Below, piece after piece: positions 50,249-59,121 of a DNA stretch of 64,000 nucleotides. The notes beneath the pieces were generated by a model that saw nothing but the letters and a program-made list of their open reading frames with translations, searched no databases and was not told the origin of the DNA. Location: NCBI GenBank assembly GCA_022701275.1, contig CP031740.1, positions 1,747,001 to 1,811,000 of the forward strand. The letters are read 5' to 3'. How positions within the stretch are numbered: the stretch's first letter is position 1; every line of letters starts with the position of its first letter. Origin of the DNA: Microcoleus vaginatus PCC 9802. Lineage in GTDB: Bacteria; Cyanobacteriota; Cyanobacteriia; Cyanobacteriales; Microcoleaceae. The position numbers and the translations under genes are program-made.

Positions 50249-51277
50249 CTATTCGCTAAAAATTTGCAAGCGAATAGAGCGTTCTCCGTCTCCGAAATCC
50301 ACTTCTATCTTTTCTCCCGAAAGAGTGTCCAAGCATCCCAAAAGCAACCGCAAGTTGGGTGTGCTTGCTCCTGTATCCACGTACAATCTATCTGCCAAAC
50401 TGCCTAAACGCTTCCAAATCGTGTAGAGTTTGACTACTGTTTGTTCGAGCTGTGCGGCTTGTTTTACAACGTCGGCGGTGGTTCCCAAACAGCCTACTCG
50501 CAAAGATTCTTCTAAGGCCATTTCCATGTCTAAATGAGACTGATTGAGAGCTTGCACTTGGGCGGCGGCGTCGAGATATTTTGATAAGTTCTTGGCGTCG
50601 GATGTTAGCTGTTTGACAGTATCTACGTCGGGATTTTCTGCTACTTCTTTTTGAATTTCGCTTTGGTGAGATGGGGAGAGTTTCTCCATTTCTTTGACTA
50701 AAGGAGCGAGGTAGCGCGAAGGTAGAGAACCAGTAGATGCTTTTTCTTTGACTTCTTCGGGCAATAAATCTGAGTTCATTGCCATCCATTCGTCGGATAG
50801 TTGTTTGACTTCGCGGCGGGTGATGCGATCGCCATTGGCTGCTGCATCTGTTACCATTTGCTGGACTTCGGGAGATGCTTTGGCGGTTTCTACAAAGGCT
50901 CTTTTGCTGAAGTTTCTAATGGAATCAGGGTCTAAATCTCCTTGCTGGATCAGAGTATCGGCACTATTAGCTAATTCTATCAAAGAATAGGCTTGACTTT
51001 TGCCAATTTCTCTTTCTTTGAGCCAGTTCAAAAAGCCTGTACCGCGTCCTTCGCCGCCTTTTTTTTCTCTGTCTCGGACTGTTCGGAGAATGCGTCCCCG
51101 CCAAATGTCGGTTTGCAAGTCGAAGCGATCGCACACTTTCCAGGCATTGTCAACCTGATTTTCAAAATCAAACTCTGGTATTTGTTCGTCTTCGGGGTCT
51201 GGCAATTGGAAATTGATATCGGTAAAGCCGTTGAGGGCTTCTGCAAGTTCTGCGGGATTTAGGGGGACTTCAGCCAT
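50249..51277 (-). CDS. Conserved hypothetical protein, DUF3102-like central region
   Basis: 342 residues, soluble and helical. The N-terminus is acidic (LPDPEDEQIPEFDFENQVDN). A central part, FLNWLKEREIGKSQAYSLIE then LANSADTLI, resembles the DUF3102/ParB-associated helix-turn-helix style. It then has RRILTR/REVKQLSDEWM-like and SPSHQSEIQKEVAENPDVDT segments and long helices. The C-terminus ends DFGDGERSIRLQIFSE. DNA binding is possible but not shown. No partner gene adjoins; repeats flank it. ATG at 51277. Confidence 0.65.
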   Translation of the reverse strand: MAEVPLNPAELAEALNGFTDINFQLPDPEDEQIPEFDFENQVDNAWKVCDRFDLQTDIWRGRILRTVRDREKKGGEGRGTGFLNWLKEREIGKSQAYSLIELANSADTLIQQGDLDPDSIRNFSKRAFVETAKASPEVQQMVTDAAANGDRITRREVKQLSDEWMAMNSDLLPEEVKEKASTGSLPSRYLAPLVKEMEKLSPSHQSEIQKEVAENPDVDTVKQLTSDAKNLSKYLDAAAQVQALNQSHLDMEMALEESLRVGCLGTTADVVKQAAQLEQTVVKLYTIWKRLGSLADRLYVDTGASTPNLRLLLGCLDTLSGEKIEVDFGDGERSIRLQIFSE

Positions 51278-51626: not shown

Positions 51627-51824
51627 ATGTCAGAACAAGACATCGCTAATATCATTACTATCGAACCGGGGAAGCGAGGCGGTAAACCCTGTATTAGAGG
51701 CATGAGAATTACAGTTTATGACGTGTTGGAATATCTCGCTTCTGGGATGAGTTATGAAGAAATCCTAGATGATTTTCCCTATCTTACCCAAGAGGATATT
51801 TGGGCTTGTTTGAGTTTTTCTTAA
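51627..51824 (+). CDS. DUF433 domain protein, antitoxin-like, C-terminally shortened
   Basis: 65 residues. The DUF433 core is clear: ITIEPGKRGGKPCIRGMRIT and VYDVLEYLASGMSYEEILDD, ending LTQEDIWACLSFS. Typical members continue about ten more residues (AYAADRE-like). DUF433 proteins are VapB45-type antitoxins, usually followed by a PIN-like DUF5615 toxin gene. None follows here; the next gene is the pentapeptide protein, so this is an orphan or remnant. An SD-like AAAGGAAAA precedes the ATG. Confidence 0.85.
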   Translation: MSEQDIANIITIEPGKRGGKPCIRGMRITVYDVLEYLASGMSYEEILDDFPYLTQEDIWACLSFS

Positions 51825-51903: not shown

Positions 51904-51956
51904 ACTGTAGTCGTAATTAATTGACTGGACATAATATTATCTCCCTGCGTGAAATC

Positions 51957-53810
51957 ATGCCCAAAGACTTCTCCGGTAAAAATCTCCGAGGCCGCAACTT
52001 CAAAGGTCAAAACCTCACAGGTGCCAAATTCATCGGTGCAGACATCCGAGGCGCAAACTTCACCAATGCCATCCTCAGAGAAGCTGACTTCACCCGTGCC
52101 AAAGCCGGACTCCAACACCGCTGGACAATTTTTCTAGTAACTGTCTCGCTATTTCTATCGGTAATATCGGGATTGATGTCAGCTCGTGCTACTTTGTGGA
52201 TAGCAGTTTTTTTCACTCCAGATATCATCAAACAGTACACCATTCGTCCCGGTGTAGTTGTGTTGATAGTTTTGGCAATTTCCTTTATAGCTATTATCCG
52301 CCAAGGTCTAGGGGCAGCGACAGAGGCAGGGGCAGCGGCAGTTGCAGTGGCAGTGGCAGGGGCAGGGGCAATGGCAGTGGCGGCGGCAGGGGCAGGGGCA
52401 GTGGAAGTGGCAGCGACAGGGGCCGTGGGAGTGGCAGGGGCAGTGGCAGCGGCAGGGGCAGCAGCGGTGGCACTGGCAGCGGCAGCGGCAGTGGCAGGGG
52501 CAGCGGCAGGGGCAGTGGCAGCGGTAGTGACAGCGGCAGTGGCAGGGGCAGCGGCAGGGGCAGCGGCAGGGGCAGCGACAGGACTAGGTATTTACGTTGC
52601 TTGGCGTGCCCTGGCTGGGGATGAGAAACACGCCTTGATTCGCACCGTTGCCATTTCCTTTGCCACTACAGGTGGCACTAGCTTTCGCAGTGCGGATTTA
52701 ACTGATGCCAATTTCACTGAGGCAACTCTCAAAAGTACAGATTTTAGAACAGCCAATCTCACTCGCACTTGCTTCCGCAATACAGAAAAACTCGATCGCG
52801 CGCGTGTCGCTAATTCGATATTAGCTGATACCCGCGTCCGAGAATTACTCATCACTGGCAATGGCTACAAAAAATCCTATGTTGGTGCGAATCTCCAAGG
52901 AGCAAACCTGACAGGCGTTAATCTCAACGAAGCTAATCTCAAGCAGGCTAATCTCAACGAAGCAACTTTGCATCTAGCTAATTTGGAATGGGCAAACCTC
53001 AGTGAAACTCAAGCCTTGGCAACAGATTTTACAGAAGCTTATTTTACAGGTGCTTGTTTGGAAGCTTGGAATATTGACGGTAATACAAAGCTCGATCGCG
53101 CTGACTGTCGGTTTGTTTATCTTCTAGAAGATCCCAAACCGGGAACTGACGATCGCGATCGTCGTCCTCACCACATCAACAAGTGTTTTGAACCGGGGGA
53201 TTTCGAGAAACTCTATAAAAAGATTATGGAAACCGTGCAAATCCTGATCAAAAATGGGCTTAACCCAGAAGCTTTTACCGCCGCTTTTCAGAAGTTAATG
53301 CAAGAATTTCCAGAGATTACACGGGCTTCCATTCAAGGAATTGAGAAAAAAGAAAACGATGTTTTACTGATTCTCAAGGTTTCCGAAGGAACGGATAAGG
53401 GAAAAATAGAGCAAACTTGGGACGAAGTTTATCAAGCAAGGCTGGAAGCTCAAAGACAAGCCGAACACTTAAAATCTAAAGATGAAATTATTGAAATTGA
53501 AAGACATAACTACCGTGTCTTTCAAGACTTTGTGAAAGGAGTGTTTAGTCAATACTTAGTAAATCCTTCAACCGTGCTTCAGCCATCGAACCCTACAATT
53601 AATATTCACAATCAATCTACAGCAGAGAATAAAGTCGCAAGCGAGAACATCGACCAAAGTCGCAAAGCTGAAATTTCAGGCGGAACGGTTCACGCTACCG
53701 GTGCCGGATCATTAAGTTTAGGAGATAATGACGGTACAACAGCCAACACGATCGAAGAGTTGCCTGATTCAGCCGTTAGCGCAGCCCTCGAAGAGGATCG
53801 CCCTTCCTAA
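51957..53810 (+). CDS. Pentapeptide-repeat membrane protein with Ala/Gly/Val-rich segment, cluster gene 1
   Basis: 617 residues from ATG 51957 (MPKDFSGKNLRGRNF). A TTG 36 bp upstream would add 12 residues. Order: pentapeptide repeats (FKGQNLTGAKFIGADIRGA, 14-50); two hydrophobic helices (56-82 and 100-115); a 95-residue Ala/Gly/Val tract (about 119-213); a second pentapeptide block (FRSADLTDANFTEATLKSTD, then YVGANLQGANLTGVNLNEAN); an IQGIEKKENDVLLILKV domain; a coiled coil (AEHLKSKDEIIEIERHNY); and a C-terminal Gly/Ser motif (GGTVHATGAGSLSLGD). The last three recur in the next two genes. Pentapeptide repeats form right-handed beta helices. Overall function unknown; membrane-linked structural or defence role is inference. 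Confidence 0.8.
   Translation: MPKDFSGKNLRGRNFKGQNLTGAKFIGADIRGANFTNAILREADFTRAKAGLQHRWTIFLVTVSLFLSVISGLMSARATLWIAVFFTPDIIKQYTIRPGVVVLIVLAISFIAIIRQGLGAATEAGAAAVAVAVAGAGAMAVAAAGAGAVEVAATGAVGVAGAVAAAGAAAVALAAAAAVAGAAAGAVAAVVTAAVAGAAAGAAAGAATGLGIYVAWRALAGDEKHALIRTVAISFATTGGTSFRSADLTDANFTEATLKSTDFRTANLTRTCFRNTEKLDRARVANSILADTRVRELLITGNGYKKSYVGANLQGANLTGVNLNEANLKQANLNEATLHLANLEWANLSETQALATDFTEAYFTGACLEAWNIDGNTKLDRADCRFVYLLEDPKPGTDDRDRRPHHINKCFEPGDFEKLYKKIMETVQILIKNGLNPEAFTAAFQKLMQEFPEITRASIQGIEKKENDVLLILKVSEGTDKGKIEQTWDEVYQARLEAQRQAEHLKSKDEIIEIERHNYRVFQDFVKGVFSQYLVNPSTVLQPSNPTINIHNQSTAENKVASENIDQSRKAEISGGTVHATGAGSLSLGDNDGTTANTIEELPDSAVSAALEEDRPS
52311..52595 (+). repeat. GC-rich hexamer array inside pentapeptide gene
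   Basis: About 285 bp of GGCAGN/GGGGCA-type 6-bp units, such as ggcagtggcaggggcagcgg. The array is open in all three forward frames. In the gene frame it encodes A/G/V-rich sequence; the other frames give RGSG- or QWQG-type runs. Base composition is far from the AT-rich flanks. Confidence 0.9.
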
Positions 53811-53867
53811 CAAAGTGAGTAATGCTATAATTTTAGTCAAACTCTGGTAACAGCGGAAATCAAAGCT

Positions 53868-54407
53868 ATGAGCGTATCAGTAGGTTCAGAGAAACCGGAA
53901 TTTAAAGAATTACTGCTGCAATTGCAAGCTGCGATTGCGAATGAAAATACAGAATTGTCAATCCAGAGTATAGAAAATTCCGAAAAGGGAGTAATTGCAA
54001 TCTTTGTCAATGCTCTGACCGAGGATAAGCAAGCTATAATTTATCACGAGTTAAAGCAAAACTACGAACTACTGTTAAAGGCTATTGAAGATAAATATCA
54101 AGCTGAATTGCGAGCCAAAGATTGCGAGATTGCCATGTACCGTCAAGAGATAGCTATTTCCGAAGCAGTTTCTAAAAGTTTAACAGAACTTGAAACCGAT
54201 GCTCATTCCAGTCAGGAAGATGAGTCGATCGCCGAATCAGAGGATGTGGAGTCACTAAGGGCGATCGCCCAAAAATACAAGGATGAATTAAAATATAAAG
54301 ATGAGGAAATCGCCTTATATCGCCAGCAAATAGCTGAAATGAGAGAACTAACAGAGATGTTAGCTAAACAACCGCTGTCGATTAATATTATTCAGGAGGA
54401 TAAGTAA
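53868..54407 (+). CDS. Coiled-coil protein, cluster gene 2
   Basis: 179 residues, no signal peptide or membrane helix. It starts EFKELLLQLQAAIANEN, as does the C-terminal module of gene 3. Next comes LSIQSIENSEKGVIAIFV, matching the IQGIEKKENDVLLILKV domain of gene 1. Then two copies of a coiled coil: KYQAELRAKDCEIAMYRQEI near 83-102 and KYKDELKYKDEEIALYRQQI near 135-154. The end is LAKQPLSINIIQEDK. Highly charged. It lies 57 bp after gene 1 and 21 bp before gene 3, so probably one transcript. No known family. Confidence 0.75.
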   Translation: MSVSVGSEKPEFKELLLQLQAAIANENTELSIQSIENSEKGVIAIFVNALTEDKQAIIYHELKQNYELLLKAIEDKYQAELRAKDCEIAMYRQEIAISEAVSKSLTELETDAHSSQEDESIAESEDVESLRAIAQKYKDELKYKDEEIALYRQQIAEMRELTEMLAKQPLSINIIQEDK

Positions 54408-54428
54408 GCATAAAGTCTTACCCAAACC

Positions 54429-55070
54429 ATGCAAAGTGACGAAAGTCTTACTCGAATTATCCAGGCCTATGAGCAAATTATCAAAGATTTAGAAGCCAAG
54501 CACAAATCTGAACTGCAAGCTAAAGATAGAGATATAGACTTTTACCGTCAAAAAAGTTTGGAGTTAAATGAACTTCTAAAAGTGTTGGCGACGCGACCTG
54601 TTAATGTTATTATTAATAATGAAGTTAAATCTACATCAGAGAGTAAAGCTATGAGTGACCAAATCGACCAAAGTCGCAAAATAGAAATTACAGGCGGAAC
54701 CGTTAACGCTAGCGGTGCAGGAGCTTTAAGTTTAGGTGATATCAGCGGTACTGTTGCCAATACAATTAATCAATTATCTGATTCTGCTAAACCAGATGAA
54801 CCGGGAATCAAAGAATTATTGACTGAGTTACAAACAGCGATCGAGGCGGAAACTGATTTATCTGATGATGATAAAGCTGAAGCATTGGAGCAGGTAAAAA
54901 CTTTGGCAGAAGTAGGGAAAAATCCCCAAGAAAGTACATTGCAAAAGGCGGGGAAAACGGCCATGAAAATTTTGAAAGGGACTATTGCTGGTTTACCTAG
55001 TGCGGCGACGTTGGTGGAAGCTTGCAGTAAATTGTTGCCCGCGATCGCAAGTCTTTTACTTTTACCCTAA
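54429..55070 (+). CDS. Modular protein with Gly/Ser motif and hydrophobic C-terminus, cluster gene 3
   Basis: 213 residues. N-terminal coiled coil KHKSELQAKDRDIDFYRQKS, then LATRPVNVIINNE, as at the end of gene 2. The Gly/Ser motif IDQSRKIEITGGTVNASGAG and ALSLGDISGTVANTINQL (79-116) matches the C-terminus of gene 1, with near-identical DNA over the first 18 bases. A helical module, IKELLTELQTAIEAETDL, follows, and the tail AMKILKGTIAGLPSAATLVE then CSKLLPAIASLLLLP is hydrophobic and could insert in a membrane or oligomerise (inference). I recall similar modules in other filamentous cyanobacteria, but know no function. Confidence 0.75.
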   Translation: MQSDESLTRIIQAYEQIIKDLEAKHKSELQAKDRDIDFYRQKSLELNELLKVLATRPVNVIINNEVKSTSESKAMSDQIDQSRKIEITGGTVNASGAGALSLGDISGTVANTINQLSDSAKPDEPGIKELLTELQTAIEAETDLSDDDKAEALEQVKTLAEVGKNPQESTLQKAGKTAMKILKGTIAGLPSAATLVEACSKLLPAIASLLLLP

Positions 55071-55914: not shown

Positions 55915-58900
55915 TTAAAACGGCGATACTTTATCGCGTTCTACCTCCTCGCCTGCAGTCGTTTTCCCATTCAAAATTATTGTGCCATCATCGGGCAGAT
56001 TGTCTAGTCGATCGCGCTTCCGAAAGCGATCGCGAGCCGAGACAACCACCACATACAGAACCGGCACTATAAACAAACTCAAGACAGTAGAAACAACCAT
56101 CCCCCCGGCGATCGCATTCCCTAGCGATCGGCGGCTCGCTGCACCCGCACCTTCTGGGTTAACCAGAGGAGCAATCCCCAAAACAAATGATAAAGAAGTC
56201 ATCAAAATCGGTCGTAAACGCTCTTGAGAAGCCTCAACTGCCGCCTTAGCAATTGAATATCCCTGCTCCCGTAACTGGTTAGCAAACTCCACGATTAAAA
56301 TCGCATTTTTACTAGCCAACCCAATCAACATCACCAAACCAATCTGGCAATAAACATCATTCGCCAAACCCCGCAACGACTGAGCTAAAAGAGCACCTAA
56401 AATCGCCAGAGGCACCGATAGCAAAATAATGAAAGGATCGACATAATTTTCGTACTGAGCCGCCAACACCAAAAACACAAAAATCAGCCCCAAACCGAAA
56501 ATAATCGGTGCTTGACCGCCCGACTCAATTTCTTCTAAAGAACTCCCCGACCATTCATAGCCAAAACCCGACGGCAAAACTTCAGCCGACACCTTTTCCA
56601 TCGATTTTAGCGCCTGTCCAGAACTCGCTCCCGGAGCCGGAGTGCCAGTAATTTCAATTGACCTATATAAATTGTAGTGGTTAACACTTTGCGCCCCCAC
56701 CACCGGAGTTATCTTCACCAAATTGCTCAAAGAAATCATTTCATTCTTTCCAGAACGCACATACAATTTCCCAATATCTTCAGGGTTATCACGAAACTGT
56801 TTATCCGCCTGAACATACACCCGATAATTGCGCTGCTGGAGATTAAAATCATTCACATACTGAGCCCCCAGAGCCGTTTGTAGCGTACTGAAAACATCAT
56901 TAATGGGAATATCTAGAGCCTTAGCTCGATTGCGGTCAACCTCCACAATTAATTGAGGCGTATTCGCAGCAAACGTACTAAATACCGCTTGCAATCCCGG
57001 TGTCTGATTTGCCTGCTTCAAAATCCCGCCCATAGTCTGGACTAAGCCATCTAAACCGCTGTTACCTTTGCGGTCTTGCAATTGAAATTGGAAACCCCCA
57101 AATTGACCTAAACCTTGAATCGCAGGCGGATTCACGGGGAAAATTCTCGCTTCGGGAATCGAGAAAAACTTACCCCGCAACTTACCAATAATCGCTTGTA
57201 CAGTTTGATCTTCTCCGTGACGTTCTTCCCAGCCTTTAAGTGTAGTAAATATAATCCCCTGGTTGGAACTGTTACCACTAAAACCAAAGCCACCTACAGA
57301 AAAAGTCCCCACAACTTCAGGAACTTTGAGGATTTCTTGTTCCACTTTGTCCATCACCTGCTGGGTGTATTGCAGCGAAACCCCTTGAGGCCCTTGAATA
57401 ATTGTCAGAAAATAACCCTGGTCTTCCTCTGGGATAAATGCTGTCGGTACTGCTAAATAAAGCCAAGCGGTGAATCCCAGAGAAGCGATAAACAACAGGG
57501 TAACAATGGTTTTAAATCGTGTTAAGAATATTAAGGAATCTCTATATTTCTTTTGCGTCCAATCCAGAAAAATATTAATCCGGTTAAACACCCAACCCAA
57601 CGGGCCGCCAAACTTCTTACCTGGGCGCAGTAATATAGCGGCAAGTGAGGGAGTAAGAGTAACTGCCATAAAGGTAGAAAGCAGGACTGAAAAAGCAATT
57701 GTCAGGGCAAATTGTTTATAGAGTGCTCCCGTTGTCCCAGGGAAAAATGCCACTGGTACGAACACGGCCATCAATACTAAGGAAGTGGCAATTACAGCAC
57801 TAAAAAGTTCCCGCATTGACTCGGAAGCTGCTTGGCGGGCATTCATACCTTGGCGGACTAGACGGTCAATATTTTCGACTACGATGATAGCGTCATCAAC
57901 CACTAAACCTGTTGCTAAGGTAAGACCAAATAGAGACAAACTGTTAATCGTAAATCCGAAAGCTTTGATAAAGGCAAATGTCCCAATCAACGAAATCGGA
58001 ATTGTGAGGGTGGGAATAATCGTAGTGCGCCAATCTTGCAGAAACACAAAAATAACTATCACCACTAGCAAGACTGCTTCAAACAGAGTTTTGACTACTT
58101 CTGCCATTGACTCTTGGACAAATTGAGTCGTATCTAGTGCGATTCTATGTATCACTCCGGGAGGGAAGTTTTTAGCTAATTTTGCCATTTCTGCTTTGAC
58201 GGCTTGGGCAACATTTAGAGCATTACTTCCGGGTAATTGGTAAATCCCTAAACCCACAGCGTCATTCCCTCGAAATCGCAGGAAAGAGTTATAATTTTCT
58301 GCTCCTAATTCTGCTCTCCCAACATCTTTTAACTTAACTAAAGTTCCATTTGTTTCGCTTTTAATAACGATGTCTTCAAATTCGGTGGGGCTTTTTAGAC
58401 GACTTTCTGCCGTCAAATCAATCTGATACATTTGCCCTTCTGGGGCGGGTTCTTGACCAATTCTTCCTACACCAACTTGCAAGTTTTGTTCATTAATTGC
58501 TCTTGTAACATCTTGCATTGTTAGATTACGAGCCGCCAATTTATTGGGATCTATCCACAGGCGCATAGCATAGCGTCTTTCCCCAAAAATCCGCACGTCG
58601 CCCACGCCTTTTACTCTTTTTAAAGTATCTGCTAAATAGAGGTCGGCGTAGTTGCTTAAAAATATGGTATCGTATTCTTTATTTTCGGTAAATAATCCTA
58701 TAGCCAGCAGCAGGCTGTTAGATTGTTTTGTAACTGTAACTCCTGTGCGTTGTACGACATCTGGCAATTGTGGTTGAGCAACTGCAACTCGATTTTGCAC
58801 ATCGACGGCGGCGATATCTTTGTTGCGGGAAGTATCAAAGGTGGCTGTAATGGTGCTAGTTCCACTGTTGGTGCTACTGGAAGTTAGATATTTCAGTCCT

Positions 58901-59121
58901 TCAATGCCGTTGATTTGCCTTTCTAGGATGTTTGTTACCGCATTTTCGACAACTTCAGCATTCGCACCGCTATAGTTGGCTGTGACGTTGATTTGGGTGG
59001 GGCTGATGTCGGGGAAGCGTTCGATCGGCAATGTGGGAATGCTGATTGCGCCTACCAAAACAATAATTAAGGCGCAGACGCTAGCAAAGACTGGTCGTTT
59101 AATAAAGAAATCTGCAAACAT
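55915..59121 (-). CDS. RND efflux permease, HAE1 (AcrB-like) family
   Basis: 1068 residues, the inner-membrane proton-driven pump of a tripartite efflux system. N-terminal MFADFFIKRPVFASVCALII, large porter loops and 12 helices. The TM4 Asp pair for proton relay is in GLVVDDAIIVVENIDR near 400-415. FLVLAAQYENYVDPFIIL and the C-terminal GMVVSTVLSLFIVPVLYVVV are typical. Substrates are probably hydrophobic or amphiphilic compounds. It is downstream of the adaptor gene (149 bp). No outer-membrane channel gene is seen here, so a TolC-type partner must be encoded elsewhere. Confidence 0.96.
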   Translation of the reverse strand: MFADFFIKRPVFASVCALIIVLVGAISIPTLPIERFPDISPTQINVTANYSGANAEVVENAVTNILERQINGIEGLKYLTSSSTNSGTSTITATFDTSRNKDIAAVDVQNRVAVAQPQLPDVVQRTGVTVTKQSNSLLLAIGLFTENKEYDTIFLSNYADLYLADTLKRVKGVGDVRIFGERRYAMRLWIDPNKLAARNLTMQDVTRAINEQNLQVGVGRIGQEPAPEGQMYQIDLTAESRLKSPTEFEDIVIKSETNGTLVKLKDVGRAELGAENYNSFLRFRGNDAVGLGIYQLPGSNALNVAQAVKAEMAKLAKNFPPGVIHRIALDTTQFVQESMAEVVKTLFEAVLLVVIVIFVFLQDWRTTIIPTLTIPISLIGTFAFIKAFGFTINSLSLFGLTLATGLVVDDAIIVVENIDRLVRQGMNARQAASESMRELFSAVIATSLVLMAVFVPVAFFPGTTGALYKQFALTIAFSVLLSTFMAVTLTPSLAAILLRPGKKFGGPLGWVFNRINIFLDWTQKKYRDSLIFLTRFKTIVTLLFIASLGFTAWLYLAVPTAFIPEEDQGYFLTIIQGPQGVSLQYTQQVMDKVEQEILKVPEVVGTFSVGGFGFSGNSSNQGIIFTTLKGWEERHGEDQTVQAIIGKLRGKFFSIPEARIFPVNPPAIQGLGQFGGFQFQLQDRKGNSGLDGLVQTMGGILKQANQTPGLQAVFSTFAANTPQLIVEVDRNRAKALDIPINDVFSTLQTALGAQYVNDFNLQQRNYRVYVQADKQFRDNPEDIGKLYVRSGKNEMISLSNLVKITPVVGAQSVNHYNLYRSIEITGTPAPGASSGQALKSMEKVSAEVLPSGFGYEWSGSSLEEIESGGQAPIIFGLGLIFVFLVLAAQYENYVDPFIILLSVPLAILGALLAQSLRGLANDVYCQIGLVMLIGLASKNAILIVEFANQLREQGYSIAKAAVEASQERLRPILMTSLSFVLGIAPLVNPEGAGAASRRSLGNAIAGGMVVSTVLSLFIVPVLYVVVVSARDRFRKRDRLDNLPDDGTIILNGKTTAGEEVERDKVSPF

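Follow-up and report, generated by a model that had tools for sequence, protein, structure and literature searches.

Modules of one pentapeptide-repeat scaffold protein distributed over three adjacent genes of Microcoleus vaginatus: a probable variant of a modular conflict system

In modular conflict systems of filamentous bacteria, the sensor and the effector have an adaptor in common (PMC8195603, PMC10907252), and known analogues have one adaptor on both the sensor and a nearby effector (PMC10907252, PMC7889193). Adjacent genes of bacterial amyloid signalosomes (BASS) have a short motif in common, which BELL or CHAT domains accompany (Dyrka 2020, reviewed in PMC7889193). Here we analyse a cluster of three genes from the cyanobacterium Microcoleus vaginatus PCC 9802, whose genome is 6.7 Mb. 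The cluster lies in a stretch of 64,000 nucleotides (contig CP031740.1, positions 1,747,001 to 1,811,000), which we call the window and to which all positions refer. The three open reading frames (ORFs) are on the plus strand, exactly where an earlier note on this DNA had placed them, and are separated by gaps of 57 and 21 bp. Gene 1 (51957-53810) encodes a pentapeptide block, a hydrophobic insert, a second pentapeptide block, a domain that we call IQIE, a coiled coil and a Gly/Ser-rich motif (Gly motif), and it has no C-terminal domain of the kind that we call TAIL. This layout follows from the ORF, the Pfam Pentapeptide match (3e-29), hidden Markov models (HMMs) of the modules and an AlphaFold2 model. 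Gene 2 (53868-54407; 179 amino acids, aa) encodes a KELL segment, IQIE and two coiled coils, without the membrane part, the Gly motif or TAIL (ORF, BLASTP, HMM). Gene 3 (54429-55070; 213 aa) encodes a coiled coil, the Gly motif and TAIL, and it resembles a detached effector-slot protein (ORF, HMM, model).

The cluster is similar to BASS signalosomes in that a short motif is common to the proteins of adjacent genes, both in the window (genes 1 and 3) and in loci L198, L208 and L211. A helical membrane domain or CHAT is found among the partners, and motifs agree within a locus and vary from one locus to the next. Unlike BASS signalosomes, the window cluster contains no NLR (STAND NTPase), and AAA_35 partners are found only in L198 and L208. 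The motif here joins a membrane pentapeptide scaffold to the helical TAIL, and the order is reversed, with the motif before the bundle. With the Ternary, EAD and TRADD-N systems, which are known from multicellular prokaryotes (Kaur 2020, 2021; PMC7159879, PMC8195603), the cluster shares adaptors between exchangeable effectors (for example caspase) and sensors (for example pentapeptides) and the occurrence in filamentous cyanobacteria. It differs from them in having no match to the TRADD-like_N or another EAD profile, and IQIE and TAIL are not in Pfam. The identification of IQIE with TRADD-N was rejected, since a Pfam search gave no TRADD-like_N match at E≤1 in genes 1-3. A search of the M. vaginatus genome with PF20694 matched nothing, but the control was equally silent. 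By analogy, the cluster may work like the modular conflict systems and the amyloid signalosomes, with membership shown in neither class because the window has no TRADD-N or NLR. It is probably an undescribed variant of a conflict or cell-suicide-type system with exchangeable tails, some of them known from anti-virus systems.

The modules shared by the three genes were compared with 1000 shuffles, both composition-preserving and heptad-preserving. The strongest similarity is between genes 1 and 3 (BLASTP E=5e-23) and spans the coiled coil and the Gly motif. The two copies of the Gly motif (53649-53774 and 54663-54788) gave z=25 against shuffles and 16.6 with heptads kept. The coiled coils of genes 2 and 3 match each other with E=7e-10 and z=11-12 (9-10 with heptads kept). 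In gene 3 the coiled coil (54432-54593) is modelled as a single long helix with a confidence score (predicted local distance difference test, pLDDT) mostly above 80, and in gene 2 it is present as two tandem copies (54045-54377; z=9.8, copy against copy). The KELL segment of gene 2 (53898-53948) resembles the start of TAIL in gene 3 (BLASTP E=5e-4, z=6.2; TAIL HMM 7e-4). Its assignment to the helix before the IQIE domain of gene 1 was rejected at z=0.7 against shuffles. The IQIE domain of gene 1 (53172-53438; alpha-beta-beta-alpha in alignment A5 and in the model) matched no Pfam family. It is related to a segment of gene 2 found by HMM (53937-54071), with BLASTP E=2e-3 and z=4.9, and an IQIE profile built without gene 2 recovers gene 2 of the window and its orthologues at E from 3e-6 to 3e-3. 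The weakest case is the degenerate coiled coil of gene 1 (53397-53543), which is seen as helices in the model. Against genes 2 and 3 it gave only z=1.0 and 2.6, barely above generic coiled coil, and its kinship becomes visible in alignments through homologues such as L035 and L131.

Thus, what the earlier note had said about shared parts proved largely correct. It had proposed an IQxIExxE domain common to genes 1 and 2, a Gly/Ser motif of about 42 residues in genes 1 and 3 and a KELLxxLQxAI helix in genes 2 and 3, and all three were recovered. A KDxEIxxYRQ coiled coil in all three genes was recovered for genes 2 and 3, while for gene 1 it was lost in the window alone and regained only through homologues. 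That last result is what speaks for a coincidence of coiled coils and low-complexity sequence. However, all other modules are far above the heptad-kept shuffles and are confirmed by profiles over many genomes, so that the shared segments are not merely generic coiled coil, and we consider such a coincidence next to impossible.

In a sample of 291 cyanobacterial genomes, the modules are mostly fused in one protein, the opposite of homologues occurring mostly apart. Matches to the Gly motif plus TAIL profile were found in 35 genomes, mostly in frames of about 640-760 aa. According to the module HMMs, the fused order is N-terminal pentapeptide block, hydrophobic insert, C-terminal pentapeptide block, IQIE, coiled coil, Gly motif and TAIL. 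Named carriers of these relatives include Nostoc, Tolypothrix, Hassallia, Dendronalium, Leptolyngbya, Nodosilinea and an Acaryochloris metagenome-assembled genome; the near relatives with names are Microcoleus, Tychonema and other Oscillatoriales. The IQIE and coiled coil profile (A5) matched in 57 genomes, about a fifth of the sample. A neighbourhood survey, which the earlier note had suggested, showed the three genes together in eight genomes of the genus and a single fused gene outside it. Genes 2 and 3 occur in the same set of genomes, and within the genus gene 2 is full-length at this single locus only. Judged by module content, gene 3 supplies the C-terminal part that the protein of gene 1 lacks, and gene 2 is an extra piece with IQIE and a double coiled coil. 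An apparent fusion in G003 (L038) was set aside, as a run of N lies inside the gene. In L197 (2558-4597), a scaffold gene and a detached tail gene of 108 aa lie directly end to end, which is an independent split near the Gly region. The search gave no match in phages; on plasmids, four cyanobacterial records matched, all annotated as pentapeptide proteins. The survey revealed no general conserved partner gene of the fused form. A HEAT-repeat gene is a neighbour only in a subgroup of six fused loci (L104, L105, L106, L108, L115, L139).

Genes 1-3 almost certainly derive from one ancestral gene by partial tandem duplication, deletion and repeat insertion. The fused forms, the tree, rearranged loci and a dispersed repeat at the break of gene 1 point to this origin of the shuffled modules. 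In a tree of the pentapeptide-IQIE part, made by a quick method with support from the Shimodaira-Hasegawa-like approximate likelihood ratio test (SH-aLRT) only, nine split gene 1 sequences form one fully supported group among the TAIL-bearing single-gene proteins. Loci L039 and L040, at the same site, have rearranged forms: the Gly motif and TAIL followed by the coiled coil in one gene, and a gene 1 that runs on into an end like that of gene 2. Where gene 1 stops resembling the fused proteins, there is a small dispersed repeat of 24 bp (53778-53801), with 4 exact copies in the genome and 0 for the reversed control. In the tree, gene 1 of L035 clusters with CHAT-bearing proteins although its three-gene locus is otherwise ordinary, so that the scaffold gene seems to have been swapped at this locus.

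Such rearranged variants, the repeat where gene 1 loses its tail and a stop in gene 3 of G007 could also mean that gene 2 and the truncated gene 1 are mere by-products of duplication and breakage with no role of their own. However, the gene order is conserved across the three-gene loci, and the spacing of 57 and 21 bp is held in most orthologous loci. Gene 1 retains the Gly motif despite the loss of the tail behind it. Compared with its orthologues, gene 3 has a ratio of nonsynonymous to synonymous substitution rates (dN/dS, Nei-Gojobori) of 0.14-0.50; the ratio is 0.22-0.59 in gene 2 and 0.42-0.53 in gene 1. As it is below 1 in all comparisons, which indicates purifying selection, we consider genes 1-3 to be real genes, and their interpretation as remains appears improbable.

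The region after the scaffold coiled coil behaves as an exchangeable slot. It holds the Gly motif with TAIL, the caspase-like domain CHAT, or one of two other tail types: 'SAAKKA..PNK..L..V' in L200, L206 and L211 and 'LKARVIGALKAGGTEALKELIDNP' in L201, L202, L208 and L210. A CHAT end was identified by Pfam in L154, L155, L157, L192 and L194 and by eye in L193, L195 and L196. The Gly motif and TAIL also occur behind other domains. In L113 they stand behind an AbiTii domain (Pfam E=7e-34; PADLOC AbiTii 1e-35), and in L041 they stand behind CHAT, adjoining a caspase C14 gene. Thus, a cyanobacterial AbiTii protein (PF18864) bears the same module as gene 3, whereas the window proteins have no AbiTii domain, which only L113 carries. 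CHAT and caspase domains were likewise absent from genes 1-3 in the Pfam search, but they are present in relatives with the same scaffold. By analogy, a slot refilled with proteases and other tails resembles scaffold-effector conflict proteins, which is support and not proof. The earlier note knew of no function for the set, and this can be improved. Because CHAT occurs on this scaffold too, and both AbiTii and CHAT occur fused to TAIL, we lean slightly towards a role in conflict or cell death.

The same fusions bear on what TAIL does. It may be a membrane-active effector rather than an adaptor, but we put this forward only tentatively. In the rival explanation, TAIL is an adaptor or oligomerisation domain and no toxin: the signal would pass by assembly at the membrane, and the killing would be done by another TAIL protein such as AbiTii-TAIL or CHAT-TAIL. 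To stand behind two different toxic or protease domains is typical adaptor behaviour; in the scaffold of L117, CHAT and then TAIL are in one chain, and stand-alone Gly-TAIL genes exist. On the other hand, TAIL in most scaffolds occupies the place of CHAT, as an effector would, and most loci have no other conserved effector candidate adjoining. We treat the adaptor explanation, too, as a possibility of rather low probability. A stand-alone Gly-TAIL gene of about 137 aa was seen in the M. vaginatus genome near G000:C1:2276902 (L051) and also in L042, L043, L052 and L055-L057. Upstream of it, and conserved together with it, lies a gene of 185-216 aa, weakly DUF6232-like, which is about 45 bp away in L051 and L055.

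The TAIL of gene 3 (54792-55067) was characterised by Pfam, the model, a PDB fold search and hydropathy. The gene 3 model (mean pLDDT 79) has a long N-terminal helix, unstructured residues 60-99 and a helical bundle of high confidence. The last two helices of TAIL are a cationic one (+4) and then a hydrophobic one, in agreement with the hydrophobic helical end predicted earlier, although the hydrophobicity is mild. TAIL gave no PDB fold match at E≤0.001 and no Pfam family above its cut-off. The PADLOC profiles PDC-M14B match TAIL weakly yet repeatedly, with best E from 7e-5 to 1e-3. In the window only the C-terminal part of PDC-M14B was matched, weakly (E=5e-4): its C-terminal ~100 positions resemble TAIL, while the remaining part of the PDC-M14B protein is unmatched here. 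PMC11811056 credits the PDC candidates to Payne et al. 2021; a literature search did not find PDC-M14 by name.

We also looked for proteins connected through the Gly motif. In the scaffold-like proteins of 79 loci, the region after IQIE was searched for similarity to every other ORF in the locus. Outside the split clade, the scaffold of L198 has DLRNSQIGGSLINAETVNADQIGGNIHN at its end and the next gene starts with DLRNAQFGGGLINAESVNAGRVGGDIYN, followed by CHAT and AAA_35. In L208 a motif of the same kind is present in three adjacent genes, the third encoding CHAT-AAA_35, and in L211 the scaffold pairs with a motif-FGE protein. In L206 (3747-5393) a gene starts like this motif-FGE partner, and its end is overlapped by a DDE transposase gene. 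With a fixed search space, cross-locus matches were nearly all to relatives of the tails and partners or to CHAT proteins, and two looked accidental. Within a locus the motif match gave z of 11-36 (L198/L208 type) and 25 (window), and between types z was about 2-5. Because in at least three other loci (L198, L208 and L211) the neighbours share a locus-specific Gly/Asn-rich motif despite their different domains, the Gly motif in genes 1 and 3 probably serves as a connector, and a physical pairing of the two proteins appears likely. The gene 1 proteins of L037 and L040 are ~96% identical for 540 residues; beyond that point they diverge abruptly into different Gly motifs, and each of these resembles the motif in the gene 3 of its own locus. 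This is suggestive only, since one recombination of the 3' block explains it as well as selection for matching does. Thus, the co-assembly or scaffold-effector pairing proposed in the earlier note is supported, with a motif that acts like a locus-matched connector, but the cluster is no free-standing three-gene system, since outside the genus the modules are one polypeptide.

The pentapeptide repeats of the scaffold were clear from Pfam, where gene 1, 617 aa when counted from ATG (an alternative TTG start is possible at 51921), scored 100.5 bits against the curated Pentapeptide cut-off of 20.2. The N-terminal pentapeptide block (51957-52109; Pfam) and the C-terminal one (52590-53150; HMM and Pfam) are beta-helices in the model, with pLDDT 84-93 in the first. 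Between them is the hydrophobic insert (52119-52577, residues about 55-207), which by hydropathy windows of 19 is probably a multi-pass membrane region, with low model confidence here. The reading of gene 1 as a pentapeptide beta-helix protein is therefore sound, and its membrane part is probable. An Ala/Gly/Val-rich part of the insert is encoded by an in-frame array of the hexanucleotide GGCAGT (52313-52582; 43.8 copies), whose copy number in orthologues is 35-56 and which is missing in L037. In the single-gene relative L131, another in-frame unit, GCCGTA, builds part of the membrane insert likewise. In the PDB, the pentapeptide helices were best matched by pentapeptide solenoids, both synthetic and natural, with HetL and MfpA among them. 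Gene 1 shares the repeat beta-helix fold with HetL and MfpA/Qnr, but unlike in HetL and Qnr its two blocks flank a membrane insert, and its scores are far below the HetL and Qnr family cut-offs.

A large membrane part and pentapeptide solenoids would also suit a non-defence role, that is, a membrane or envelope scaffold of filamentous cyanobacteria in which TAIL and CHAT serve turnover or signalling. Purifying selection and the absence of a known defence gene adjoining the window cluster fit this explanation as well. Its patchy spread (TAIL in 35/291 and IQIE in 57/291 genomes) does not, and neither do the partners typical of conflict systems (AbiTii, CHAT, AAA_35, FGE, caspase). The chromosomal site argues in the same direction. 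The left flank gene (50249-51277, minus strand), which marks the site, is kept in 29/30 genomes of the genus. The cluster is beside it in several genomes with visible flanks and beside the right flank gene, encoding RND efflux (55915-59121, minus strand; locus comparison), in some. The site lacks the cluster in G013, G006, G319 and G002 (L144, L145, L150, L146), where the flank genes are about 295-372 bp apart. In G014 (L143, 2299-4977) the same gap is filled by an NB-ARC-like ATPase gene and a TPR gene. Because the site is empty in some genomes and holds the NB-ARC-like/TPR pair in another, the cluster can be regarded as accessory cargo at a variable site, and the gap between the two flank genes is a possible defence hotspot. 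On balance, we consider the envelope role doubtful. Upstream of the window cluster there is an orphan gene like a DUF433 antitoxin (51627-51824). In L037 (2453-3117) a small DUF5615-like gene, judged toxin-like by eye, comes directly after a DUF433-like gene.

Taken as a whole, a membrane-anchored pentapeptide-repeat scaffold with a separately encoded effector is a proposal to which we give even chances. The scaffold (gene 1) would sit at the membrane and oligomerise through IQIE and the coiled coil, and through homotypic contact its Gly motif would recruit the corresponding motif of gene 3. Infection or damage would be the trigger that sets off the assembly. The clustered TAIL bundles would then act locally, most likely on the membrane, and harm the infected cell of the filament, while gene 2 may modulate the stoichiometry as an adaptor or decoy. 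Several results weigh against this proposal. No known defence gene is beside the window cluster, and its flanks are housekeeping-like. The models rest on 20 sequences, and in that of gene 1 (mean pLDDT 57) the two pentapeptide helices are modelled well, the insert and the Gly motif badly. The last helix of TAIL has only mild hydrophobicity (mean 1.28; a single window of 19 residues reaches 1.68), so its insertion into the membrane is no more than a possibility. The stop in gene 3 of G007 is in frame and upstream of the Gly motif. The motif matches of L206 and L211 are of low complexity and are weaker evidence, a permutation test on motif matching over ten non-independent loci gave a modest 171/10000, and within the genus mere descent or a single recombination could account for the matching.

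With still more reserve, we suggest that the cluster is one of a family of pentapeptide immune scaffolds anchored in the membrane, where a fast-changing, locus-specific Gly-rich motif wires a separate effector (TAIL bundle, CHAT-ATPase, FGE sensor); this seems to us rather unlikely at present. If it is true, the motif would be a new class of bacterial homotypic signalling motif, and TAIL a new fold among cell-death effectors. Gly motifs that match within a locus could be a set of new specificity codes, comparable to amyloid signalling motifs. As the system occurs naturally in both fused and split form, one can test directly which of its parts have to be in contact. If the proposal of a membrane-anchored scaffold with a separate effector is right, an unannotated scaffold family, with two domains absent from Pfam, would join the modular machinery for immunity and cell death in filamentous bacteria.

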